A stretch of DNA of 35,398 bases from Candidatus Nanopelagicales bacterium (GTDB lineage: Bacteria; Actinomycetota; Actinomycetes; S36-B12; UBA10799), in NCBI GenBank assembly GCA_018003655.1, contig JAGNDY010000001.1:1-35398 (forward strand), read 5' to 3'. Below, one piece after another: positions 5,467-17,641 of the stretch (the stretch's first letter is position 1; every line of letters begins with the position of its first letter). A program made the position numbers and the translations under genes. Under the pieces are notes generated by a model that ran no database searches, was not told the origin of the DNA, and was given only the letters and a program-made list of their open reading frames with translations.

Positions 5467-5490
5467 CGAACCGACCGAGATTGCGTGCGT

Positions 5491-6471
5491 ATGACGACCA
5501 CTGACACCAAAACCACCATCAAGGTCCCCTCATCTCAGTCGATGGTGTCGTTGCTCGGAGTCGGCGACGAGGTCCTGCGGGCCATCGAGACAGCGCTGCC
5601 GGACATTGAGTTGCAGGTCCGTGGCAACGAGATCACCGCTGTGGGTCCGACCGCCGAAGTGGATCTGGCCAAGCAACTTTTCGGCGAGCTTCTGATGGTG
5701 TTGCGATCAGGTCACTCGGTCACGCCCGATGCTGTGGACCGATCGATCGCGCTGCTCAAGTCCGACGCCGACGTGTCCCCGTCACAGCTCCTGACCGCCG
5801 GAATCCTGAGTAATCGTGGCCGTTCGATTCGACCAAAGACCCTCAACCAGAAGCACTATGTGGACGCGATTGACAAGCACACGGTCGTGTTCGGTATCGG
5901 CCCAGCAGGCACCGGCAAGACCTACCTGGCCGTGGCAAAAGCGGTCCAAGCGCTGCAGTCCAAGGCAGTCAACCGGATCATCCTGACTCGCCCGGCAGTG
6001 GAGGCGGGGGAGCGGCTCGGATTCCTACCCGGGACTCTGAGCGAGAAGATCGACCCCTATCTGCGACCGTTGTACGACGCGTTGCACGACATGATCGACC
6101 CCGATTCCATCCCCCGACTCATGACCAGCGGCACCATCGAGGTCGCTCCGCTGGCGTATATGCGTGGACGGACACTCAATGACGCATTCGTGATCCTCGA
6201 CGAGGCGCAGAACACTACGCCGGAGCAGATGAAGATGTTCCTCACGCGGTTGGGATTTGGGTCGACGATCGTGGTGACCGGTGACGTTACCCAAGTAGAC
6301 CTTCCGGGCAGCACACGTAGCGGACTGAGGGTCGTTCGCGACATCCTCAAGGGTGTGCCCGACGTTGAGTTCTGCGAGTTGACCAGCCGAGACGTAGTGC
6401 GTCATCCATTGGTCGGCCGCATCGTCGACGCCTATGGACAATACGACGAGGATCGGCACAGCCAGTCATGA
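5491..6471 (+). CDS. phoH: PhoH-like ATPase (YbeZ type)
   Basis: From ATG 5491 the protein has 326 residues; an in-frame GTG at 5485 would add two. It has an N-terminal KH-like region (about 25-75), then the PhoH P-loop core with Walker A GPAGTGKT (137-144) and Walker B FVILDEAQN (233-241). GDVTQVDLP is the sensor region. PhoH proteins are cytosolic ATPases related to superfamily I helicases. Their linkage to ybeY, kept here with a 4-base ATGA overlap, points to a role in RNA metabolism or 16S rRNA maturation, although the name derives from phosphate regulation. Confidence 0.92.
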   Translation: MTTTDTKTTIKVPSSQSMVSLLGVGDEVLRAIETALPDIELQVRGNEITAVGPTAEVDLAKQLFGELLMVLRSGHSVTPDAVDRSIALLKSDADVSPSQLLTAGILSNRGRSIRPKTLNQKHYVDAIDKHTVVFGIGPAGTGKTYLAVAKAVQALQSKAVNRIILTRPAVEAGERLGFLPGTLSEKIDPYLRPLYDALHDMIDPDSIPRLMTSGTIEVAPLAYMRGRTLNDAFVILDEAQNTTPEQMKMFLTRLGFGSTIVVTGDVTQVDLPGSTRSGLRVVRDILKGVPDVEFCELTSRDVVRHPLVGRIVDAYGQYDEDRHSQS

Positions 6472-6956
6472 GTATCGACATCGCGAACGAGTCCGGACAG
6501 GACTGCGACGAGGACTCCCTCGTCGCGCAGGCGCGGTTCGTCCTGGCGCGGCTGCGATTGCACCCAGACGCTGAACTCTCACTCGTCCTGGTCGATGAGG
6601 CCACGATGACCTCTCTGCATGAGCGGTGGATGGACGAACCGGGTCCGACCGACGTGTTGTCTTTCCCGATGGATGAGCTGCGGCCCGGACGCGACGACAA
6701 GTCCGCCGATGAGCCCGACGCCGGACTGCTTGGCGATGTGGTTATCTGCCCGTCCGTTGCCGCCAGGCAGGCCGAGGTGGCTCGCCATTCCGAGCGCGAT
6801 GAACTCGGGGTGTTGCTTACCCATGGGATTCTGCATCTGCTGGGCTACGACCATGCCGAACCGGCAGAAGAGCGGCTGATGTTCGGATTGCAGGGCCAAC
6901 TCGTCGCTGAATGGAATCGATCGACTTCCGCCCAAGCGGCTGGCGGCCCATCGTGA
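6468..6956 (+). CDS. ybeY: Endoribonuclease YbeY (rRNA maturation factor)
   Basis: A 162-residue UPF0054-family zinc endoribonuclease involved in 16S rRNA 3'-end maturation and 70S quality control. The zinc motif HGILHLLGYDH places His at 119, 123 and 129. The preceding TDVLSFPMDE is the other family hallmark. Its ATG overlaps the phoH stop (ATGA at 6468-6471), indicating translational coupling. A short acidic insertion (residues 74-86, rich in Asp) precedes the beta strand with GDVVICP. The next gene most likely starts at the GTG overlapping its stop. Confidence 0.95.
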   Translation: MSIDIANESGQDCDEDSLVAQARFVLARLRLHPDAELSLVLVDEATMTSLHERWMDEPGPTDVLSFPMDELRPGRDDKSADEPDAGLLGDVVICPSVAARQAEVARHSERDELGVLLTHGILHLLGYDHAEPAEERLMFGLQGQLVAEWNRSTSAQAAGGPS

Positions 6957-8314
6957 AGGGTGACGGCGAACTGCTGGTCGTGGCGGCCGTCCTGGTCGTG
7001 ATCAGCATGTTCCTGGTGGCTATCGAGCAGGCGATGACCCGGGTCTCCAAGTCCCGTGTGCTGGACATGGTCAGCAATGGGGTTCGCGGTAGCGACCGAC
7101 TCCTGGTCGTGATCAATGACCGCGCTCGGTACATCAACGTCATTCTCATGCTGCGGATGGCAACGCAGACCTTCGCGGTTGTCTTCGTCGCCGTCGAGGT
7201 GCTGCAGGAGTTTCCACAGAACAAATGGCGCGCGATTGCCGTGGCTGGCGTCTGCATGTGGCTGATCGGCTTTGTTGTGTTGGGAGTCGCGGCTCGAACG
7301 CTCGGCCAGCAGCATCCAGTCGGGTTCGCGTTGCGCGGCGCGCGCCTCGCGCGCATCTTGTCTTCCGTGAGCGGGCTATTGGCCAAGGTGCTCATCACCA
7401 TCGGCAATGCCATCACCCCTGGGAAGGGATACCGGGAAGGTCCATTCGCCACCCAAGCCGAACTGCGCGAGATGGTCGACCTGGCGGAGGCCGACGATGT
7501 GATTGAAGCGGACGAACGTCAGATGATCCACTCGGTGTTTGAGTTGGGCGACACGATTGCTCGTGAGGTCATGGTGCCCCGCACCGAGATGGTCTGGATC
7601 GAACGCGACAAGAGCCTGCGACAGGCGCTGTCCTTGGCACTGCGTTCCGGGTTCAGCCGCATCCCCGTCATCGGGGACAGCGTCGATGACATCGTTGGCA
7701 TCGTCTACATCAAGGACTTGGCCCGCCGGTCGTTCGAGCATCACAGTTCGGAGCGATCAGAGAAAGTCAGCAAGATCATGCGATCGGTGGCGTTCGTGCC
7801 GGATTCCAAACCCGCCGATGAGCTGTTACGTGAGATGCAGGCCGACCGAGTTCACGTCGCAATTGTGGTCGACGAGTACGGCGGCACCGCTGGCTTGGTG
7901 ACGATCGAAGACATCGTGGAGGAGATCGTGGGGGAGATCACCGATGAGTACGACGTCGCCGAGACCCCGGAGTCGGAGGAGCTGCCAGACGGTGCCTGGC
8001 GCGTGAGTTCGCGGATGCAACTCGATGACTTGGCCGAGCTCTTGGAACTCGACATCTCCGAAGATGTCGAGGGCGTCGAGACCGTCGGAGGCTTACTCGC
8101 AAGGCGGTTGGGCTTCGTTCCGATTCCGGGATCCCAGATTGACGTTGAGGGTTACCACTTGATCGCAGAGTCGGCCGCAGGTCGACGCAACCAAATCGGG
8201 ACAGTATTGGTGACATCAACCCCCGCGACACCACAGGCCACGTCGCCGTATTCCACATCTGATGAAGTAGCGAGTGACTCTGCTGACGCCACGTCAAACG
8301 CGGAGAGCGCATGA
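6953..8314 (+). CDS. CNNM/CorC (HlyC) family transporter with CBS pair
   Basis: Starting at GTG 6953, which overlaps the ybeY stop (GTGA), the protein is 453 residues. An upstream ATG at 6911 would add 14 residues but overlap ybeY by 46 bp. An N-terminal DUF21/CNNM membrane domain (residues 5-155, about four hydrophobic segments) is followed by a CBS-domain pair (about 205-330, including MVPRTEMVWI and DEYGGTAGLVTIEDI). A CorC_HlyC C-terminal domain follows (about 345-425) and then a Ser/Thr-rich tail. Relatives are implicated in magnesium/cobalt efflux or metal homeostasis; the old 'hemolysin' label is misleading. The typical LEADDVIEADERQMIHSVFELGD segment is seen in part. Neighbouring genes match the actinobacterial ybeY-CNNM-era order. 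Confidence 0.9.
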   Translation: MKGDGELLVVAAVLVVISMFLVAIEQAMTRVSKSRVLDMVSNGVRGSDRLLVVINDRARYINVILMLRMATQTFAVVFVAVEVLQEFPQNKWRAIAVAGVCMWLIGFVVLGVAARTLGQQHPVGFALRGARLARILSSVSGLLAKVLITIGNAITPGKGYREGPFATQAELREMVDLAEADDVIEADERQMIHSVFELGDTIAREVMVPRTEMVWIERDKSLRQALSLALRSGFSRIPVIGDSVDDIVGIVYIKDLARRSFEHHSSERSEKVSKIMRSVAFVPDSKPADELLREMQADRVHVAIVVDEYGGTAGLVTIEDIVEEIVGEITDEYDVAETPESEELPDGAWRVSSRMQLDDLAELLELDISEDVEGVETVGGLLARRLGFVPIPGSQIDVEGYHLIAESAAGRRNQIGTVLVTSTPATPQATSPYSTSDEVASDSADATSNAESA

Positions 8315-8673
8315 GCGTCGTTCGTGAAATCAGCGAGGAAGACAACAAACTGATCGCGCTCGCACGGGGCGCACGGGCCAGGGCCGGATCGCCCGAAGGG
8401 GCAGCCGTTCGCGATGACACCGGGCGGTCCTACTCGGCTGCCACCGTTGACCTGCCGAGCGTGAAGCTCACGGCCTTGCAATTGTCCGTAGCGACCGCGG
8501 CGTCGGCGGGTGCGGCTGGCTGCGAAAGCGCCGTCGTCGTCACCGGCGCCACTGCGGTTGACGCGCTCGACCTTGCTGCCATCCGAGACCTAGCAGGCGA
8601 TGACGTGCCAGTGCTGCTCTGCGATCTACGCGGTGAGGTCATCGCGTCCGTGTCATCAGGGTCCGGCGCGTGA
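8311..8673 (+). CDS. Degenerate cytidine-deaminase-fold protein
   Basis: This 120-residue protein occupies the place, between the CNNM gene and era, where actinobacteria carry a short deaminase-like gene (Rv2365c-type). It overlaps both neighbours by 4 bases (ATGA at 8311, GTGA at 8670). The pattern AAVRDDTGRSYSAATVD followed by ALQLSVATAASAGA follows the strand-helix order of cytidine deaminases. However, the zinc-binding and catalytic C/H-A-E and PCxxC motifs are missing; the only two cysteines (CESA, LLCD) are not in those contexts. Deaminase activity is therefore unlikely. It may have a structural or binding role linked to Era, but this is inference. Confidence 0.7.
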   Translation: MSVVREISEEDNKLIALARGARARAGSPEGAAVRDDTGRSYSAATVDLPSVKLTALQLSVATAASAGAAGCESAVVVTGATAVDALDLAAIRDLAGDDVPVLLCDLRGEVIASVSSGSGA

Positions 8674-9611
8674 GCGTGGAGTCCGGGGCGGGCGCCGGCA
8701 GCTACCGCAGCGGCTTTGCCTGCCTGGTAGGTCGTCCTAATGCTGGCAAGTCCACCCTCATCAATCGGATGGTGGGGACGAAGATCGCGATCACCTCGGA
8801 CCGCCCCCAGACAACCCGGCGAACGGTGCGCGGCGTTGTCACTCGGCCGGATGGTCAACTGATCTTGGTCGACACTCCCGGCCTGCACAAACCACGGACC
8901 CTGCTCGGAGAACGCCTGAATGACTTGGTCCGCACGACCTGGGTAGATGTCGACGCAGTCGGTTTCTGTGTTGCCGCGGATGAGAAGACCGGACCCGGTG
9001 ATCGCAATCTCGCCCGGGAACTCGCGTCGGCCACCCGCAAACCGGTATTTGCTGTGATCACCAAGACCGACATCGCGACGCCGGCACAGACCGCCGAGCG
9101 GCTCGCGACCGTGCAGCAGATGTGCGTCGCGGAGGGTCTTGAGATCGCTCACTTCGTGCCGGTATCGGCGGTCAGCGGCAGCAACGTAGATGAGTTGACC
9201 GAACTGCTGGTGTCCGTTCTGCCGCTGGGACCGAGGCTCTACCCCGGAGACGAAGTGACCGATGAGTCGGAGGAATCGATGATCGCCGAACTCATTCGGG
9301 AGGCATCGCTCGCGGGTGTGGTTGAAGAATTGCCACACTCCATCGCGGTCACCATCGACGAGATGGCGATGCGCGAGGGTCGCTCGCCGGACAAACCGCT
9401 GATGGATATCCACGCCACCATTCACGTAGAGCGAGAAAGCCAGAAACCGATTGTCATTGGCCGACGTGGTTCGCGGTTGAAAGCGATCGGCATGCAGTCG
9501 CGCAAGAACATCGAACGCCTTGTTGGGGTGCCGGTCTACCTGGACATCCACGTTCGCGTCGCCAAGGAATGGCAACGTGACCCCAAGCAGCTACGGCGGT
9601 TGGGGTTTTAG
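8670..9611 (+). CDS. era: GTPase Era
   Basis: A 313-residue Era, the GTPase that binds the 3' end of 16S rRNA and assists 30S assembly. G1 is GRPNAGKS (21-28), G3 DTPG (68-71), and G4 reads TKTD (131-134) rather than the canonical NKxD. G5 lies in SAVSG (166-170). The C-terminal KH domain has VIGRRGSRLKAIG with the GxxG loop at 264-267. A GTG start overlaps the upstream stop. The next gene is convergent, 13 bp after the stop, so Era ends this plus-strand operon. In relatives recO follows closely; here a trehalose operon lies between. Confidence 0.95.
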   Translation: MSVESGAGAGSYRSGFACLVGRPNAGKSTLINRMVGTKIAITSDRPQTTRRTVRGVVTRPDGQLILVDTPGLHKPRTLLGERLNDLVRTTWVDVDAVGFCVAADEKTGPGDRNLARELASATRKPVFAVITKTDIATPAQTAERLATVQQMCVAEGLEIAHFVPVSAVSGSNVDELTELLVSVLPLGPRLYPGDEVTDESEESMIAELIREASLAGVVEELPHSIAVTIDEMAMREGRSPDKPLMDIHATIHVERESQKPIVIGRRGSRLKAIGMQSRKNIERLVGVPVYLDIHVRVAKEWQRDPKQLRRLGF

Positions 9612-9624
9612 ACCACGGTTTGGG

Positions 9625-10938
9625 TCAGTCTCTGGTTGCTGGCGAGGCCGCGTCAGCCGCACCGGAGGCTGGCGGGGAGTTATCTTCCCGCTTGCGCACC
9701 TTTTTCTCGATGGCGTGGTGTTCGAGCAGTTCGTAGCGTCTGCCATAGGTCTCCACGATGGCCAGCAGCATCGCGGCGATCGGAATGCCGATAAGCGCAC
9801 CGATGGGTCCGAACAGCGCTGCGCCAACGATGACGGAGGCGAATGCGACGGCTGGGTGAATGTCCATTGTCTTGGCGCTGATCTTGGGGGCCAGGTAGTA
9901 GTTCTCCAACTGTTGATACACAGTGCCAAAGATGACGATCCAGACAACATCCCACGGATCGTTGAAGACCGCGACCAAGCAGGGCAGGAGCAAACCAAGA
10001 TAGGTGCCGAGGGTGGGAATGAACTGACTGATGACGCCGGTCCAGATTCCCATTGGCAGCCAGTAGGGGATGTCAATCAAGTAGAAGAAGGCCGAACTGA
10101 CGACCGACAGCAGAATCGCCAGGAGGAGTCGGGAGACGACGAATCCGCCGGTCTTGCGAATGGCGATCTCCCACACTTGGTTGAACACCAACTGGCGACG
10201 CTGTGGCAGCCAGGACGCCACGGTGTCACGGATTTTGGGCCCCTCGGCGGCGAAGTAGTAGCCGAACAGCAGCAGCGTGAAGAACTGGAAGATGAAGCCG
10301 ACAAGACTCGACAGGATCCCAAAAGCGCCGCCCGCCAGGTTCGCTGCGATATTGGCGACCTGGGTTGGGGAGACGTTGAGTTGCTGCTGAATCTCGGTCG
10401 CATCGAAGGTGGTGTCGAACGTTCGATTTACCCAGTCGACGATGTCGACCAACGACGATGGCACGGCGGTGATGAGCTGAGTCAGCTGGCTCACCAGCAG
10501 GCTTCCGAATGCCAGCAGGAATCCAACGGCAAAGCCAGCGAACAGGATCAACGTGAGCAGCGTGCCCAGCCGTCGGCCGATCCCACGCCGCTCCAGATAG
10601 CTGACAATCGGATCCATCGCGATCCCAAAGAGCCATGCCAACAGCAGGAGGAAGATGAAGTTGCCGAGTCTGCTGAAGGCCCAATCGCCGATCCAGACGA
10701 CCACGACCAGCAGGAGCACGGTGATCGCGGAACGGCGAATCCAGCGTGGATCCATGGTGATCGACCAGCGCTTGCCGTTCGCGGGGTCCACGCTTGCATC
10801 AGTGGAAGGGCCCCCGTCGCCACCGTCGGAGCTGGTCGAGGGGTCGCTAGGCCCGTCCGACGAGTCCGAGTCGGCCTCCGGATCAGCCACATCGGTGGAT
10901 TCGACGACGGTCGCGACGGGGCTGGAGGTCTCGGACAT
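9625..10938 (-). CDS. AI-2E family (PerM/YdiK-like) membrane transporter
   Basis: This 437-residue protein has a disordered acidic Ser/Asp-rich N-terminus (residues 1-60) and an AI-2 exporter-like core. The core has paired hydrophobic segments near 70-90 and 92-112, one near 125-150, a cluster near 205-235, and several between 265 and 405. The family hallmark is seen in the region with QFIPTLGTYLGLLLP and GALIGIPIAAMLLAI. The C-terminus is charged (EKKVRKRED). Members include autoinducer-2 exporters but also Na+/H+ antiporters and proteins of unknown substrate. It lies 40 bp downstream of the otsB-GH15 gene on the same strand and is likely co-transcribed, so an osmotic or solute role is possible. 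No LuxS is seen in the window. Confidence 0.85.
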   Translation of the reverse strand: MSETSSPVATVVESTDVADPEADSDSSDGPSDPSTSSDGGDGGPSTDASVDPANGKRWSITMDPRWIRRSAITVLLLVVVVWIGDWAFSRLGNFIFLLLLAWLFGIAMDPIVSYLERRGIGRRLGTLLTLILFAGFAVGFLLAFGSLLVSQLTQLITAVPSSLVDIVDWVNRTFDTTFDATEIQQQLNVSPTQVANIAANLAGGAFGILSSLVGFIFQFFTLLLFGYYFAAEGPKIRDTVASWLPQRRQLVFNQVWEIAIRKTGGFVVSRLLLAILLSVVSSAFFYLIDIPYWLPMGIWTGVISQFIPTLGTYLGLLLPCLVAVFNDPWDVVWIVIFGTVYQQLENYYLAPKISAKTMDIHPAVAFASVIVGAALFGPIGALIGIPIAAMLLAIVETYGRRYELLEHHAIEKKVRKREDNSPPASGAADAASPATRD

Positions 10939-10978: not shown

Positions 10979-13636
10979 CTAGAGCGGCGTGTCGGCGCTG
11001 TTTTCCAGCAGCATCGCGCAGCGAATCAAACCCAGATGGGAGTACGCCTGCGGGTGGTTGCCCAGACCCCTGTCAGTGCCGGGGTTGTACATCTCCGGCA
11101 GCAGCCCAGTGGTGCCGGCACAGTTGAGGTACTGGGCGAACAGGTTGTGGGCCTCGTCCCACAGGCCCGCCATTGAGTAAGCCTCGACCAGCCAGCTGGT
11201 GCAGATGTTCATGCCGCCCTCGGTTCCGGGCAGTCCGTCGTCATGTCGGTACCGATAGACCGTTGGCCCGTCACGCAGGGAAGCCTCGACGGCTCGGATT
11301 GTGCCGATCGCGCGCGGGTCGCTGCCTTCGATCATGCCGGAGGTGATGACCGCCAGCACGCCGGCATCGACGTCCGTTCGGCCGTAGGCGGAGATGAATG
11401 TATTGAGTTCGGAGTCCCAGCCATTGGTCAGGATGTCCTGGCGGATGAGTTCGCGCAGTGCCACCCAATCGGAGCGCTCTGCCCGAGCCATGGCAATCAC
11501 CTGGATTGCTTGGTCCACGGCCATCCAGCACATGACTCTGGAGTGGACGTGTTCACGGGGAGCATCGCGGATCTCCCAGATGCCGTGGTCCGGTTCGCGC
11601 CACCGTCGAGCGACAGCTTCGACGCAGGCGTTGACGGTCTCGAGGTCTCGGCCAGTCACGAATCCGCGAGCCGCTGCGGTCTCTGCGACCATCGCGCAGA
11701 TGGGCCCAAACACGTCGAGTTGAACTTGGCCTTGGGCTGCGTTACCGATCCGCACTGGGCGACTGCCCGCGTATCCCGGCAGCGTATCGACCACCGCCTC
11801 CGGGCCCAGGATGGTTCCTTCCAGCGTGTAGAGCGGGTGGACCCGATCCGGGGCGGTCGCGACGTCCAAAATCTGGGAAAGCCAATCCATGAACGCATCG
11901 GCTTCCTTGGTGCTGCCAAGTTGGCTAAGCGCGCCCACGGTCATGGCAGCGTCGCGCAGCCAGCAGTAGCGGTAGTCCCAGTTCCGAATCCCGCCAATCC
12001 ATTCGGGCAGGCTCGTCGTTGCTGCGGCCAACGCCGCGCCAGTCGGCTCGTAACACAGGGCTTTGAGGGTTAGGGCCGAGCGCACAACGCTCGCGCGGTG
12101 GTGCTCAGGCAGTTCCAGCGAGCCAACGAATGCCTGCCAGCGGTCGTGGTTGAACTCGCGGCGATCGGACTCAGGCACTGGATGTGGTTCAAGATCGTTG
12201 GTACCCGATCGCAACTCGACGACGTAGGTACCGCCAGCGGGATCGATGATCGCCGATGCGGTGGGGTGCGGCCCGACGTGGCTGATTTCCCAGTCCAGCC
12301 CGGGAGCGAAGAGGACGAGCGGATCGGAGGTGCCCATCACCCGGATGCCATTGTTGGTCGCCTCCAGGCTCACCGGCACCGCACCGAACTGTGGGCGTGG
12401 GGCGAAGGAGATCCACACCGGCGCCGTCCCGGTGATGGATCGGACGAGTCGAAGTTGCGATTCTTGCCCGGCAGTTCGGCGAGACGAATAGTCCAAGTAG
12501 TCGGTGACTGTGACCCCAGCCCACTTTGTCGCCACCGTCATGGTCTTGTTGACATAGTTCTGACTCAATGGCCGACCGGAACGGACGGGTTTGATTGTCA
12601 GATGACCAGCCTCCGGATCGCCCAGCAACCCAGCAAAGATGGCTGGCGCGTCCGGTCCGGGATGGCACAACCAATTGATGCTGCCGTCGGGGGTCAGCAG
12701 TGCGATGTCGATTCCGTCGCCGAGCAGCGCGTGGTCCTCGATTGGGACGGCGCTTGCCCCAGCGAGCCAGGCTTCGCGTTCTTCGCCGAGGACGGCCAAG
12801 GCCTCGATGACGTCCTGGGGACCATCGATGCGGTAGCCAGCCGCAGTCGCGCCCTCACCGACTTTGATACCCATGTCGCCGTCTGTGAGGGTCTCGAACA
12901 CGTGCTCATCGGTCACGTCGTCGCCAATGAACAGGGCAGCGGTGGAGTCGTTGATCTCGCGCAGGTCCCGCAGCGCGCTGCCCTTGTCCGCGTCGACGAT
13001 TGAGATCTCCAGAACCTTCTTGCCGGCCTTGAGAAAAGCCTCTGGATCGTTGTCGAAGTGCTCATGCAAAGCGGCGATGACAGCCTCGCCCGCGTCGTCG
13101 GCGGCACGGCGCACGTGAACGGCAACTGCAGCCGGTTTGAGTTCGAGTTGGACGCCCTTGACGTTTTCGGTGATCGCGACACATCGTTCGGTCACGCGAG
13201 CGAGCCGCTCGTCGGCGTCGTCGCCAGCACCGTGGATAGCACCAAGGTCGAACTCGGCTCCGTGACTTCCGACCAACTGAATCTCGGCCGGGAGTCGAGA
13301 CATCGCGGCGAGGTCTCGCAGCGCCCGACCGGACACGACCACCACGGTCGTTGCGGGCAAGCCCGCTAAGTGGCGCAGGACATTGACCGCCTCCGGCAGC
13401 GGCCTGGCCTGGTTCGGGTCATTGACAATGGGGGACAGCGTGCCGTCGTAGTCACAGCCGATGAGCAATTGACCTGTTCGGGCGATGTCGCGTAGTGCCA
13501 GACGCAGGCCGGGGGCGATCTGCGAGGTGTCGACTCCGGAGAGCTCGTCCTCGGGTATGCCGACGGTGTAGGCAGCGGCCGCGCCGACATGACGTTCGGG
13601 CTCGCTGGTGGGTCCCGGGTCGATTGTCGAACTCAT
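10979..13636 (-). CDS. Bifunctional fusion: trehalose-6-phosphate phosphatase + GH15 glucosidase/trehalase
   Basis: This 885-residue protein joins two enzymes. Residues about 45-285 form a HAD-type OtsB with DYDGT (62-66), VVSGR (100-104), Lys in DKGSALRDL (about 218) and GDDVTDEHVF (238-247), all four HAD motifs intact. Residues about 300-880 form a GH15 (alpha/alpha)6 enzyme. It has DGSINWLC near its start, RNWDYRYCWLRDA (551-563), GIWEIRD with the likely general acid Glu688, and LLPEMYNPGT with the likely general base Glu848. GNHPQAYSHLGLI lies near the end. OtsB releases trehalose from trehalose-6-phosphate. GH15 relatives in mycobacteria are trehalases, though glucoamylase-type alpha-glucosidases share the fold. 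The ATG overlaps the otsA stop (ATGA), indicating coupled translation. A precedent for an OtsB fused to a hydrolase-like module is mycobacterial OtsB1 (with a GH65-like domain). Confidence 0.92.
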   Translation of the reverse strand: MSSTIDPGPTSEPERHVGAAAAYTVGIPEDELSGVDTSQIAPGLRLALRDIARTGQLLIGCDYDGTLSPIVNDPNQARPLPEAVNVLRHLAGLPATTVVVVSGRALRDLAAMSRLPAEIQLVGSHGAEFDLGAIHGAGDDADERLARVTERCVAITENVKGVQLELKPAAVAVHVRRAADDAGEAVIAALHEHFDNDPEAFLKAGKKVLEISIVDADKGSALRDLREINDSTAALFIGDDVTDEHVFETLTDGDMGIKVGEGATAAGYRIDGPQDVIEALAVLGEEREAWLAGASAVPIEDHALLGDGIDIALLTPDGSINWLCHPGPDAPAIFAGLLGDPEAGHLTIKPVRSGRPLSQNYVNKTMTVATKWAGVTVTDYLDYSSRRTAGQESQLRLVRSITGTAPVWISFAPRPQFGAVPVSLEATNNGIRVMGTSDPLVLFAPGLDWEISHVGPHPTASAIIDPAGGTYVVELRSGTNDLEPHPVPESDRREFNHDRWQAFVGSLELPEHHRASVVRSALTLKALCYEPTGAALAAATTSLPEWIGGIRNWDYRYCWLRDAAMTVGALSQLGSTKEADAFMDWLSQILDVATAPDRVHPLYTLEGTILGPEAVVDTLPGYAGSRPVRIGNAAQGQVQLDVFGPICAMVAETAAARGFVTGRDLETVNACVEAVARRWREPDHGIWEIRDAPREHVHSRVMCWMAVDQAIQVIAMARAERSDWVALRELIRQDILTNGWDSELNTFISAYGRTDVDAGVLAVITSGMIEGSDPRAIGTIRAVEASLRDGPTVYRYRHDDGLPGTEGGMNICTSWLVEAYSMAGLWDEAHNLFAQYLNCAGTTGLLPEMYNPGTDRGLGNHPQAYSHLGLIRCAMLLENSADTPL

Positions 13637-15114
13637 TCGGAGGGTTCCGCCTCACCGGTTCCATCGGGGAATTGCGCAGCATGCACATGGTCGGTGTGGG
13701 CCAGGGTCCCGAGGAAGTCCTGCGCCCAGCGCTGGACGTCGTGCTCCTGAACGTGCCGACGCATCGCCCGCATTCGCCGCTGACGCTCTTCCGGGGTCGC
13801 CGAGGCTGCTGCGACGACGGCCTCTTTCACGCCGTCGGCGTCATAGGGGTTGACCAACCACGCCTGGGGAAGTTCCCGAGCCGCGCCGGTGAACTCGCTC
13901 AGTACCAGCGTGCCGTCACCGTCGACGCGCGCGGTGACGTACTCCTTGCAGACCAGATTCATGCCGTCGCGCAGCGGCGTGACGAGCATGATGTCGGCGG
14001 CCTGATACAGCGCCACCAACTCCGCTAGTGGTAGCGAGTTGCGCACATAGTGGATCGCTGGCGCGCCGATCTGGCCGAGTTCGCCATTCGTATGGCCCAC
14101 GATCAATTCGACGTCGTCGCGGATCCGCTGGTATTCATCGACGTTCTCGCGACTCGGTGTCGCAACTTGAACCAGGACCGTCTCATCCGGGTTGAGGCGG
14201 TTCTCCCGCAGGAGTTCGGTGTAGGCATTCAGCCGAACGTCGATGCCCTTCGTGTAGTCGAGGCGGTCAACCCCCAGCAGCATCGTCTTCGGGTTACCCA
14301 AGTCCTCCCGGATCTGCTTGACCCGGGCCGCGGTCGCCTCGTCGCGGGCGATCTCGTCGATGCGACCCACGTCCACGGAGATGGCGAAAGCGCTGACTTT
14401 TGCTTCGCGGCGGCCACCATGCGCGCCGGGCACCTCTACGACGTCGCCCTTTGCCGGCCAACCGAGTAGACGTTCGGTGACTGCTAGGAAGTTCCGGGCA
14501 CCGCCGGTGGTTTGGAAGCCCACAAGGTCCGCGCCCAGCACGCCGAGCACGATGCTTCGGCGCCAGGGCAATTGCAAAAACAGATCAGGAGCGGGAAAGG
14601 GGATGTGCAGGAAGAAGCCGATCTTCAAATCTGGTCGCAACGAGCGCAACATCGCGGGGACCAACTGCAGTTGGTAGTCGTGTACCCAGACCGTCGCGCC
14701 CGGCTGCGCGGCCCTCGCCGCCGTCTGGGCGAACAACATGTTGACTCGCCGGTAGGCGTCAAACTGATGGCGGTGATAGCTAGGCGTGACGATCGCGTCG
14801 TGGTACAGCGGCCAGAGCGCTGAGTTGCTGAATCCGTCGTAGTACAACTCCACATCACGACGGTTAAGCGGCACTTCCAGGACTCGATAGTCGCGGTTGT
14901 CGTCGTACTCGGGAATGGGCGGAAGCTTGTCCTTACCGAGCTCGGCGTAGTGGCCGTTCCAGCCAATCCACGTACCGTCTCGGCCCTTTAACGACGGTTC
15001 GACGGCAGCAACGAGGCCACCCGGTGACGTCTTCCAGGTAGTTGATCCATCTGGCTTCTCAACTGCCTCAATTGGTAGTCGATTGGCAACCAGGACCAGA
15101 TCATCACCAGACAC
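13633..15114 (-). CDS. otsA: Trehalose-6-phosphate synthase OtsA (GT20)
   Basis: A 493-residue retaining glycosyltransferase that joins glucose from a nucleotide sugar to glucose-6-phosphate. Visible motifs are the N-terminal ANRLPIE and the loop [22 protein letters not shown] (143-153) and [21 protein letters not shown] supplies phosphate-binding Arg284 and Lys289, and [14 protein letters not shown] supplies Asp383 and Glu391. The GTG at 15114 is chosen because the family starts at [16 protein letters not shown] hexamer lies 6 nt before it, so the mRNA may be leaderless; a GGAG close to the codon is too near for a normal RBS. It is the first gene of a minus-strand operon and diverges from recO. 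Confidence 0.95.
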
Positions 15115-15126: not shown

Positions 15127-15172
15127 GCGCGCCGGGTGATGTTCGCGCGAGCGTGAGGGGCAAACTGGCTTG

Positions 15173-15904
15173 GTGCCGACCTACCGAGAGACCGCCCTGG
15201 TCCTGCGTACGCAGAAGCTCGGAGAATCCGATCGGATCGTCTCGCTGCTGACCAAGGGGCGAGGCAGGGTCCGAGTTGTCGCCCGTGGCGTTCGCCGGAC
15301 ATCGAGTCGAATCGGTGCTCGGCTGGAACCGTTCGCTCTCGTTGACGTCCAGTGCTACGAGGGGCGAACGCTGGACTCTGTCACCCAGGTGGAGTCGTTG
15401 GCCAACTACGGAGCGACATTGAGCGGGGACTACGCCCGCTGGACCGCGGGCCAGGTCATGTTGGAGACCGCAGAGCGATTTACCAGTGAGGAAGGCGAAC
15501 CCACGGTCCAGCAGTTCTTATTGCTTGTGGGCGGCCTGCGGTCGTTGGCGGCAGACGAGCATGAGGCAGGACTGATTCTGGACTCGTTCCTGCTGCGGTC
15601 GTTGTCCGTTGCAGGTTGGGCGCCCTCTTTTGAGGTGTGCGCCAAGTGTGGGGAGTTCGGGCCGCACCGGGCCTTCCACCCCGCCGCTGGCGGTGCCCTA
15701 TGCGCGGATTGCAAAGTACCCGGATCATCGATGCCGTCGGCTGGAACGCTTGAGCTCATGGGCTCCCTGTTGGCTGGCGATTGGCAGGCCGCCGAGCAGA
15801 GCACGGCCCGACAACGGCGCGACGCCGCTGGGGTCACCGCCGCGTACCTGCAGTGGCACCTGGAACGCAACCTGCGGTCCCTGCCGCATGTTGAGCGCGC
15901 CTGA
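15173..15904 (+). CDS. recO: DNA repair protein RecO
   Basis: A 243-residue RecO, which with RecR loads RecA in recombinational repair and anneals ssDNA. The N-terminal OB-fold carries MPTYRETALVLRTQKLGESDRIV, the usual opening. A helical middle follows, and then a C-terminal zinc site with Cys156/Cys159 (CAKC) and Cys177/Cys180 (CADC). GTG at 15173 fits the family start; a TTG one codon earlier is possible because GAGGGG lies 9 nt before it. The gene is followed at 40 bp by uppS, the standard actinobacterial pair. Confidence 0.93.
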   Translation: MPTYRETALVLRTQKLGESDRIVSLLTKGRGRVRVVARGVRRTSSRIGARLEPFALVDVQCYEGRTLDSVTQVESLANYGATLSGDYARWTAGQVMLETAERFTSEEGEPTVQQFLLLVGGLRSLAADEHEAGLILDSFLLRSLSVAGWAPSFEVCAKCGEFGPHRAFHPAAGGALCADCKVPGSSMPSAGTLELMGSLLAGDWQAAEQSTARQRRDAAGVTAAYLQWHLERNLRSLPHVERA

Positions 15905-15909
15905 GACCG

Positions 15910-15938
15910 TTGAACAAGCGCGGTACCTGCCACACTAT
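15910..15938 (+). promoter_or_regulatory. Putative leaderless promoter of uppS
   Basis: TTGAAC (15910-15915) and CACTAT (15933-15938) are separated by 17 bp. The -10-like element ends 6 nt before the ATG at 15945, so transcription would start at the first codon. The match to consensus is moderate. Confidence 0.4.
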
Positions 15939-15944
15939 TGACCT

Positions 15945-16727
15945 ATGGGGATGCAGCAGTACCGCACGCCGACACCCCACGTTGAAGGCGTCAAACCACC
16001 GGGCATTGCCCGCGCGGATCTGCCTCGTCACGTGGCGATCGTCATGGATGGCAATGGCCGATGGGCCAATCAACGGGGCCTGCCGCGGACAAAGGGCCAC
16101 GAGGCAGGCGAACAGTCGCTGCTCGACTGCGTGAACGGCGCATTGGAGTTGGGCATCCCATGGTTGTCTGCCTACGCATTCTCGACCGAGAACTGGAAGC
16201 GTTCCCCGGAGGAAGTTCGATTCCTGATGGGCTTCAATCGGGACGTAGTTCACCGGCGTCTCGATGAGCTCGATGCGCTCGGCGTTCGAGTCAAATGGGC
16301 AGGTAGGCCGAAGCGACTGTGGCGCAGCGTCATCAACGAGCTCCAGGTTGCCGAGCAGCGCACCAGGAACAACACCGCGATGACATTGACCATGTGCGTG
16401 AACTACGGCGGCCGGGCAGAGATCGCCGACGCCGTGGTCGCCATCGCAGCACGCGTCAAGTCGGGGGACCTCGATCCTGATCGCATCGATGAGCGAACGG
16501 TCGCTCGCCATCTCTACGACCCGGAAATGCCTGACGTGGATTTGTTTATCCGATCGAGCGGCGAACAACGCACCAGCAATTTTCTGCTCTGGGAGGCCGC
16601 CTACGCAGAGATGGTCTTTCTCGACCACCTCTGGCCGGACTTCGACCGACGTCATCTGTGGTACGCGGTGCAGTTATACGTCAATCGTGAGCGGCGCTAT
16701 GGCGGGGCGAAGGGACCGGCGGTCTAG
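15945..16727 (+). CDS. uppS: Isoprenyl transferase (UppS family, di-trans,poly-cis)
   Basis: A 260-residue cis-prenyltransferase that elongates allylic diphosphates with isopentenyl diphosphate to make the lipid carrier for cell-wall synthesis. MDGNGRWA (34-41) holds the catalytic Asp35. [19 protein letters not shown] and the C-terminal [15 protein letters not shown] are further hallmarks. In this last motif a Glu replaces the more frequent Gln after LLW, probably without effect. In actinobacteria this enzyme makes decaprenyl or undecaprenyl diphosphate; the chain length cannot be read here. ATG 15945 is used, and a second in-frame ATG lies at 15951. The CDF gene follows after 2 bp. Confidence 0.94.
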
Positions 16728-16729
16728 CG

Positions 16730-17641
16730 ATGGGAGCTGGTCACTCGCACGCGAGCGCGGCGCAACGCAACCGAGGATCCTTGGTTCTGGCCTTTGGGCT
16801 CGGCTTGTCCATTCTGGTCGTCCAGCTTGTCGGTGCGTTCGTGTCCGGGTCGCTGGCGCTGCTGGCAGATGCAGTCCATGTTTTTGCCGATGTGTTCGGC
16901 GTGGGACTGGCGCTCATTGCCGTGTCCGTCGCGAATCGGCCGACCAAACCTCGACGAACATTTGGCCTCTACCGGCTGGAGATCCTGGCCACGGTATTCA
17001 ACGGACTGTTGCTGCTCGGACTGTCGATCTACATTCTGATCGAAGCGTACGACCGGTGGTTCCACCCATCAGAAATCAACGCGCCGGTGATGATTGCCGC
17101 TGCTGCCTACGGCCTGGTTGCCAACGCCGTGGCCGTGACCAAGCTGCGTTCCGGTTCCAAAGAGAGCCTGACGCTGCGTGGCGCTTACCTGGAGATGCTC
17201 GCCGACGCGATCGGGTCGGCGGGCGTGATCATCGCGGGCGTCATCATATTGACCACCGGTTGGACGCGTGCCGATTCGCTGGTTTCCGTGGGGATCGCCC
17301 TGTTCATCGTGCCGCGGACGCTGTTGTTGTTGCGCGACTCACTCGGGGTGCTGATGGAGAACGCCCCGCCTGGCCTGGACCTGGATGAGGTCCGGCGACA
17401 CATGCTCGGCGTGCAGGGCGTGGTCGCTGTGCACGACCTGCACGCGTGGACCATCACCAGTGGCATGGCGTCGTTGTCCGCGCACGTAGAAGTCGAACCC
17501 GATCCATACGACGATGGGGCCGGCGCGGAGGTGCTGGGTCGGTTGGGTGTTTGCCTGCTCGACTGCTTCGAGATCAGTCACACGACGTTTCAACTCGAAT
17601 CCGTTGCCCATGCCGAAGGTGAGGAAGGTCGCCACCCATAG
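16730..17641 (+). CDS. Cation diffusion facilitator (CzcD/ZnT-like) metal exporter
   Basis: A 303-residue CDF protein with a His-containing N-terminus (GHSHAS), six predicted membrane segments (about 16-37, 41-62, 83-105, 118-135, 157-177, 180-198) and a cytosolic C-terminal domain with HDLHAWT (about 231-237). The first metal site is HVFAD (His50, Asp54), as in zinc exporters. The second, normally HxxxD, reads EMLAD (Glu155, Asp159). It starts 2 bp after uppS, so it is probably co-transcribed. It faces a convergent Zur-like gene, which supports a zinc or related-metal role, while the altered second site leaves metal choice open. Confidence 0.9.
   Translation: MGAGHSHASAAQRNRGSLVLAFGLGLSILVVQLVGAFVSGSLALLADAVHVFADVFGVGLALIAVSVANRPTKPRRTFGLYRLEILATVFNGLLLLGLSIYILIEAYDRWFHPSEINAPVMIAAAAYGLVANAVAVTKLRSGSKESLTLRGAYLEMLADAIGSAGVIIAGVIILTTGWTRADSLVSVGIALFIVPRTLLLLRDSLGVLMENAPPGLDLDEVRRHMLGVQGVVAVHDLHAWTITSGMASLSAHVEVEPDPYDDGAGAEVLGRLGVCLLDCFEISHTTFQLESVAHAEGEEGRHP

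Follow-up and report, generated by a model that had tools for sequence, protein, structure and literature searches.

Introduction

Can a single polypeptide both complete the synthesis of trehalose and break the sugar down again? This question is raised by an open reading frame at positions 10,979 to 13,636 of the stretch of DNA analyzed here (35,398 nucleotides from the genome of a Candidatus Nanopelagicales bacterium; hereafter, the window), in which a first-pass annotation had recognized a trehalose-6-phosphate (T6P) phosphatase of the OtsB type joined to a GH15 hydrolase. Our analysis suggests, with a probability of roughly 0.6, that the encoded protein takes part in trehalose turnover with two activities, that of a T6P phosphatase and that of an inverting alpha-glucosidase, the latter most likely a gated trehalase.

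Domain composition of the fusion protein

The frame comprises 885 codons, opens with ATG, and has no internal stop. An uninterrupted frame of this length had been described previously, and the present analysis adds that it lies on the minus strand. Three Pfam models scored above their cut-offs (Table 1): Trehalose_PPase (PF02358; 111.4 bits versus 27), TREH_N (PF19291; 260.5 versus 23.1), and GH15 (PF00723; 181.6 versus 22). The claim that OtsB and GH15 share one chain was thus correct with respect to the fusion itself, but it overlooked the TREH_N domain that occupies the stretch between the two halves. An AlphaFold2 model of the protein based on a 43-sequence alignment had a mean pLDDT of 86 and a pTM of 0.74, and a Foldseek search with this model matched both T6P phosphatases and GH15 enzymes. 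The genome is a single draft (2.36 Mb, 96% complete, 167 contigs), in which a frameshift or an assembly artefact might have joined two genes. Identical architectures in genomes of the same family and in 65 independent loci nevertheless rule this out, leaving a negligible probability for such an artefact.

Table 1. Features of the window at and around the fusion gene.
Feature	Coordinates	Strand	Evidence
OtsB-TREH_N-GH15 fusion protein, 885 aa	10979..13636	-	single ORF; three Pfam domains above cut-off; AlphaFold2 model
Trehalose-6-phosphate phosphatase (HAD) domain, residues 62-258	12863..13453	-	PF02358 (4.8e-32), TIGR00685, solved-phosphatase matches
TREH_N domain, residues 285-500	12137..12784	-	PF19291 (1.1e-77); alignment with 1lf6
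GH15 (alpha/alpha)6-barrel, residues 513-874, E688 (acid) and E848 (base)	11015..12100	-	PF00723 (3.2e-53); VIA-align; catalytic Glu alignment
otsA, trehalose-6-phosphate synthase (GT20), 493 aa, upstream	13633..15114	-	PF00982 (1.5e-140); only GT20 in genome
AI-2E family transporter, next downstream, 40 bases away	9625..10938	-	PF01594 (5.6e-61)

The phosphatase half and its coupling to otsA

All HAD motifs were confirmed in the translated frame at the residues named by the first-pass annotation (D62-Y-D-G-T66, S102-G-R104, K218, and G238-D-D-V-T-D243), and the catalytic residues D62, D64, R104, K218, D239, and D240 are all present. The phosphatase family model TIGR00685 returned 124.6 bits against a curated cut-off of 68.05, and the N-terminal half matched solved phosphatases in sequence and in structure. 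The start of the fusion gene overlaps the stop of otsA by four bases (ATGA), as expected from the earlier proposal that the two are translationally coupled. The window protein is the sole phosphatase of the OtsB family in the genome, just as otsA encodes the sole GT20, and is the only candidate of its family to finish trehalose synthesis there. Given that this only family member stands beside the only OtsA, that neither TreS nor TreY scored above the model cut-off in the genome, and that the HAD motifs are intact, we consider it near certain on these genomic grounds that the N-terminal half is a T6P phosphatase. The same situation recurs in five genomes, two mycobacterial and three other, in each of which the fused protein is the sole member of the phosphatase family and is accompanied by OtsA.

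The downstream AI-2E transporter gene, which has no known link to trehalose, is possibly co-transcribed with the fusion gene; a scan for promoters and terminators gave no signal above that of shuffled sequence. Divergent from otsA on the plus strand (15170-17641) are genes for RecO, undecaprenyl diphosphate synthase, and a cation efflux protein, and three ORFs of similar size are arranged in this way at a locus from a genome of the same family (L141). The plus strand at 5485-9611 carries an ordinary housekeeping run that encodes a PhoH-like protein, a CNNM/CBS transporter, and an Era-like GTPase with a KH domain.

Catalytic residues and fold of the GH15 half

The two glutamates put forward as catalytic in the first-pass annotation, E688 (within GIWEIR) and E848 (within GLLPEM), hold up by motif position and by alignment to the isomaltose glucohydrolase of Kribbella (PDB 5z3a). 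In a profile alignment they correspond to chain residues 198 and 355 of that enzyme, which are E178 and E335 if a 20-residue tag is assumed; mutant structures are 5z3c (E178A) and 5z3e (E335A). VIA-align comparisons of the AlphaFold2 model yielded a Z of 36.8 over 522 residues for the bacterial glucoamylase 1lf6 and a Z of 38.5 over 328 residues for 5z3a, with 1lf6 aligning in one stretch from about residue 297 onward, TREH_N included. A PDB sequence search with the GH15 half alone returned merely a weak glucoamylase match, and the repeat-protein matches in a PDB profile search were rejected as spurious. The GH15 and TREH_N models above cut-off, the (alpha/alpha)6 barrel, and the acid and base glutamates together place this half in family GH15.

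Taxonomic distribution and evolutionary history of the fusion

The mapping of HAD-GH15 fusions onto taxonomy that the first-pass annotation had proposed revealed that 65 of the 80 best related loci in the genome collection are fused. These belong to Actinomycetota, Planctomycetota, and Chloroflexota, and include Pseudonocardiaceae, Nocardiaceae, some Mycobacteriaceae, Micromonosporaceae, Nocardiopsis, Arthrobacter, Acidimicrobiia, Phycisphaerales, and one Chloroflexota MAG. With this count and an entry in a printed table (PMC8171050), the rarity implied at first was mistaken. In a 149-genome sample of the phylum, 115 genomes encode a phosphatase and, besides the genome of the window, the fusion was confirmed only in G086 and G045 by re-examining long frames with TREH_N; this indicates that the fusion, although widespread, is the less common arrangement. 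Within the family, five other genomes have the phosphatase in frame with a high-scoring TREH_N (260, 259, 256, 255, and 255 bits), and another (G014) has a plain otsA-otsB pair and GH15 only of the low-scoring kind.

Maximum-likelihood reconstruction of the GH15 domain grouped all fused rows into one clade (SH-aLRT 96) in which four standalone rows are nested. Three changes between fused and standalone are needed on this tree, which would most simply reflect one gain of the phosphatase fusion and two losses. The tree was built by a quick method and has several long branches, such that the unfused operon proteins and the presumed mycobacterial trehalase are firmly placed only as outside the clade. 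The nested standalone GH15 rows (L059, L060, L069, and L073) have apparently lost the phosphatase secondarily. Separately, a standalone GH15 encoded by G017, a genome of the same family, has an almost identical counterpart in an Actinomycetota MAG, which makes Actinomycetota the probable phylum. Two records look mislabelled or contaminated: "Melainabacteria" L017, nested in Pseudonocardiaceae, and "Glycomyces fuscus" L051, nested in Nocardiopsis.

Decay of the phosphatase half in two lineages

The signature D62-D64-T66-R104-K218-D239-D240 was exact in 55 of 66 fused proteins, differed only by T66->C in two, and was degenerate in nine. Six of the degenerate proteins (five from Nocardiopsis and the record named Glycomyces; L049, L051, L053, L064, L066, and L067) have a deleted cap region and GG in place of the metal-binding DD, and the other three, from Arthrobacter (L045, L062, and L071), carry D62->N, D64->G, and D240->A. 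The nine represent two lineages rather than nine independent events, although the direction is the same in both. Degenerate fusions can still pass the Pfam Trehalose_PPase cut-off, and their annotation as trehalose-phosphatase is probably wrong.

A second, separate phosphatase was found in all six degenerate-fusion genomes searched (three Nocardiopsis and three Arthrobacter), and in both of those searched for otsA this gene is near the second phosphatase gene. Conversely, five of ten intact-fusion genomes have no other phosphatase, and all five encode OtsA. An adjoining otsA was found for none of the nine degenerate fusions versus 32 of 53 intact ones with sufficient upstream sequence. These observations suggest that cells retain the phosphatase half if they depend on it and the GH15 half regardless.

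E688 and E848 are invariant across the fused and standalone rows with coverage of these positions, and the motifs of the -1 subsite are likewise retained in all rows that include them. What is new here is that the GH15 glutamates are retained wherever covered while phosphatase residues were lost in two lineages (9/66). Since the catalytic GH15 residues persist in all covering rows while the phosphatase half decays in some relatives, the GH15 half is very likely catalytically active, as a predicted inverting alpha-glucosidase. The same pattern argues against the suggestion in the first-pass annotation that this half might be a regulatory domain. A non-catalytic GH15 half with a regulatory or scaffolding role would make the problem of a futile cycle (see below) vanish, but no computed result favors it, and the retention, in all covering rows, of the catalytic glutamates and -1 subsite motifs beside a decaying phosphatase renders it very improbable.

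Association of GH15 genes with otsA and otsB

The gene directly upstream is otsA in 32 of the 62 fused loci for which sufficient upstream sequence was available. Related associations occur among unfused genes: Paracoccus yeei (L143) has individual otsB, GH15, and otsA genes that overlap by 4 bases; otsB and GH15 are neighbors in Sulfitobacter; and in Parabacteroides an OtsA-OtsB fusion precedes GH15, after which comes a Na/H antiporter, and kdp genes lie close by. For Herbaspirillum, the genome paper groups otsA, otsB, and a gene for a glucoamylase into one trehalose system (PMC3093359). The repetition of this association across phyla argues for a shared metabolite.

In a genome of the same order (G029), GT20, phosphatase, TREH_N, and GH15 domains are encoded in one 1325-codon frame (L139:287-4261), an apparent OtsA-OtsB-TREH_N-GH15 triple fusion on a 4.6-kb contig, where one indel across overlapping ORFs could have produced the frame. 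A second candidate, in G021 (L138), was rejected on finding that its open frame extends backward across otsA but not in the otsA reading frame. The neighborhoods of fusions without otsA (Arthrobacter, Nocardiopsis, Rhodococcus, and Mycobacteroides) hold an aldo-keto reductase, an SDR, LacI, GntR, and TetR regulators, and ZnuA, and gave no hint of a substrate.

Substrate of the GH15 half

The best-scoring NCBIfam glycosidase models were those of archaeal trehalases, TreH1 (320.8 bits) and TreH2 (258.5 bits), scores that indicate a relative rather than a member of these families (NF041084 and NF041085), whose equivalog cut-offs are 820 and 1000. Amylase-type models scored far lower (oligosaccharide amylase, 35 bits; glucan glucosidase, 22). 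A 669-aa GH15 protein of Mycobacteroides and Mycobacterium genomes, presumed by genus and length only to be orthologous to the M. smegmatis trehalase that has been assayed, behaved similarly, scoring 342, 305, and 27 bits in the same models and likewise falling below the equivalog cut-offs. Collectively, these results support calling the GH15 half trehalase-like, although not a proven trehalase, and make trehalose its likely substrate. The earlier description of a protein that makes and may destroy trehalose is therefore plausible in view of the trehalase models (321 bits versus 35 and 22); its second part is unproven, given a score below 820 and a separate clade.

Trehalases share family GH15 with glucoamylases, glucodextranase, and isomaltose glucohydrolase (PMC12446779). 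The GH15 half might instead be an alpha-glucosidase of other specificity (e.g., for maltose, isomaltose, kojibiose, or short alpha-glucans), in which case the tie to otsA and otsB would reflect a common stress or storage regulon rather than a shared substrate. Several observations are in line with this: profile searching retrieved isomaltose glucohydrolase and glucoamylase as the solved GH15 relatives; the fused clade is apart from the presumed mycobacterial trehalase (L100/L101, identified by length and genus); the fusion coexists with this presumed trehalase, a standalone GH15, in Mycobacteroides chelonae and Mycobacterium sp. D16R12; and the fusions of Rhodococcus and Nocardia are located away from otsA. 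The weak scores of the amylase models relative to the trehalase model, and the recurrent link to otsB in operons and fusions alike, which points to trehalose, count against it. We consider a different specificity unlikely, yet the alternative that deserves most weight. The assignment as a trehalase is further weakened by three other TREH_N/GH15 proteins in the genome that could serve as trehalase.

The GH15 half might also act, or have first acted, on T6P itself, releasing glucose and glucose-6-phosphate, and the two halves would then be two exits from a toxic intermediate. Toxicity makes T6P removal essential in M. tuberculosis (PMC6879718), and the unmodified terminal glucose of T6P could conceivably fit the -1 subsite of a GH15 enzyme. 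In the literature searched, however, no GH15 T6P hydrolase was found, and the T6P hydrolases that are known are GH13 enzymes, TreC (PMC3518184), which makes this explanation improbable.

Proposed role in trehalose turnover

If trehalose is the substrate of the GH15 half, OtsA would produce T6P, the N-terminal HAD half would strip its phosphate to yield trehalose, and the TREH_N-GH15 half would hydrolyze this trehalose to glucose whenever the pool has to shrink, as upon stress relief, a hypo-osmotic shift, or exit from rest. With synthesis and breakdown on one transcript and one chain, the net direction would have to be set at the level of the enzyme, for example by a latent GH15 half. Each turn of an ungated cycle would waste the glucose carried by one UDP-glucose together with the phosphate group from one glucose-6-phosphate, and we therefore assume that the GH15 half is gated, as the cycle would otherwise be futile. 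The M. smegmatis trehalase, to which the GH15 half is related, offers a precedent for gating of this kind: it is reported to be latent, ATP-sensitive, and activated without new synthesis (PMC5371599). No gate for the GH15 half was found in the sequence of the fusion protein, and a trehalase tied to the only trehalose-making phosphatase would be wasteful unless gated, which counts against the reading that we favor. One speculative possibility, to which we assign low odds, is that the phosphatase half itself provides the gate: T6P or phosphate bound to the HAD domain would restrict trehalose breakdown to periods of idle synthesis, and a pseudo-phosphatase HAD domain would have been kept for gating or structure where a separate OtsB took over.

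Should the GH15 half be a trehalase, many actinobacteria (Rhodococcus, Nocardia, Amycolatopsis, Micromonospora, and some mycobacteria) would make and break a main protective sugar on one chain, and how futile cycling is avoided could be studied with one purified protein. The intact sole-phosphatase fusion, the pseudo-phosphatase fusion with a separate OtsB, the nested standalone GH15, and the apparent triple fusion constitute a natural comparison series. There is also a warning for annotation: such proteins are labelled trehalose-phosphatase in some cases and GH15 in others, and for some lineages the former label is probably incorrect.

Comparison with known systems

The glycosidase module of the OtsB1-type protein Rv2006 of M. 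tuberculosis, which we take to be GH65, distinguishes it from the window protein, whose module is GH15 and which has no GH65 match in Pfam. Rv2006 (1327 aa, of unknown function; PMC11046441) and an OtsB-GH65 protein in an Arthrobacter table (PMC8171050) do resemble the window protein in pairing a phosphatase with a glycosidase module of clan GH-L. M. tuberculosis also has OtsB2, which is essential, whereas the window phosphatase is the only one in its genome. The fused protein is likewise the only OtsB candidate in a Mycobacterium sp. (G001, L044) and in Mycobacteroides chelonae (G002, L023), which, unlike M. tuberculosis, have no second phosphatase of the OtsB family.

The architecture itself is already in print. 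The CAZymes tabulated for Arthrobacter sp. PAMC25564 include a GH15 entry named "trehalose-6-phosphate phosphatase" (943180-945807, 2628 bp; PMC8171050), which at about 875 aa has by its listing the same architecture and receives no comment there; the three Arthrobacter fusions described above differ from the window protein in their lost phosphatase residues. In the literature searched, with many subscription papers outside its reach, we found no characterization or assay of the fusion or of any member of the fused clade, and the passages retrieved from reviews on trehalose and GH15 enzymes do not mention the fusion.

The operon of otsB, GH15, and otsA in Paracoccus yeei, and the otsA, otsB, and glucoamylase genes that are named together in Herbaspirillum, encode the same three functions as the window locus but as separate polypeptides, and the unfused GH15 proteins examined (L107 and L108) are outside the fused clade, on long branches. 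The GH15 trehalases (M. smegmatis MSMEG_4535, PMC5371599; TreH1/TreH2) share the catalytic glutamates of the window protein, and the presumed mycobacterial orthologue shares TREH_N as well; the window protein differs in its separate clade, its scores below the equivalog cut-offs, and its junction to a phosphatase. With the OtsB phosphatases (TIGR00685; PDB 6upb, 6qj6, and 5gvx) it has the HAD fold, the motifs, and the family score in common, and only the window protein carries a C-terminal TREH_N-GH15 enzyme.
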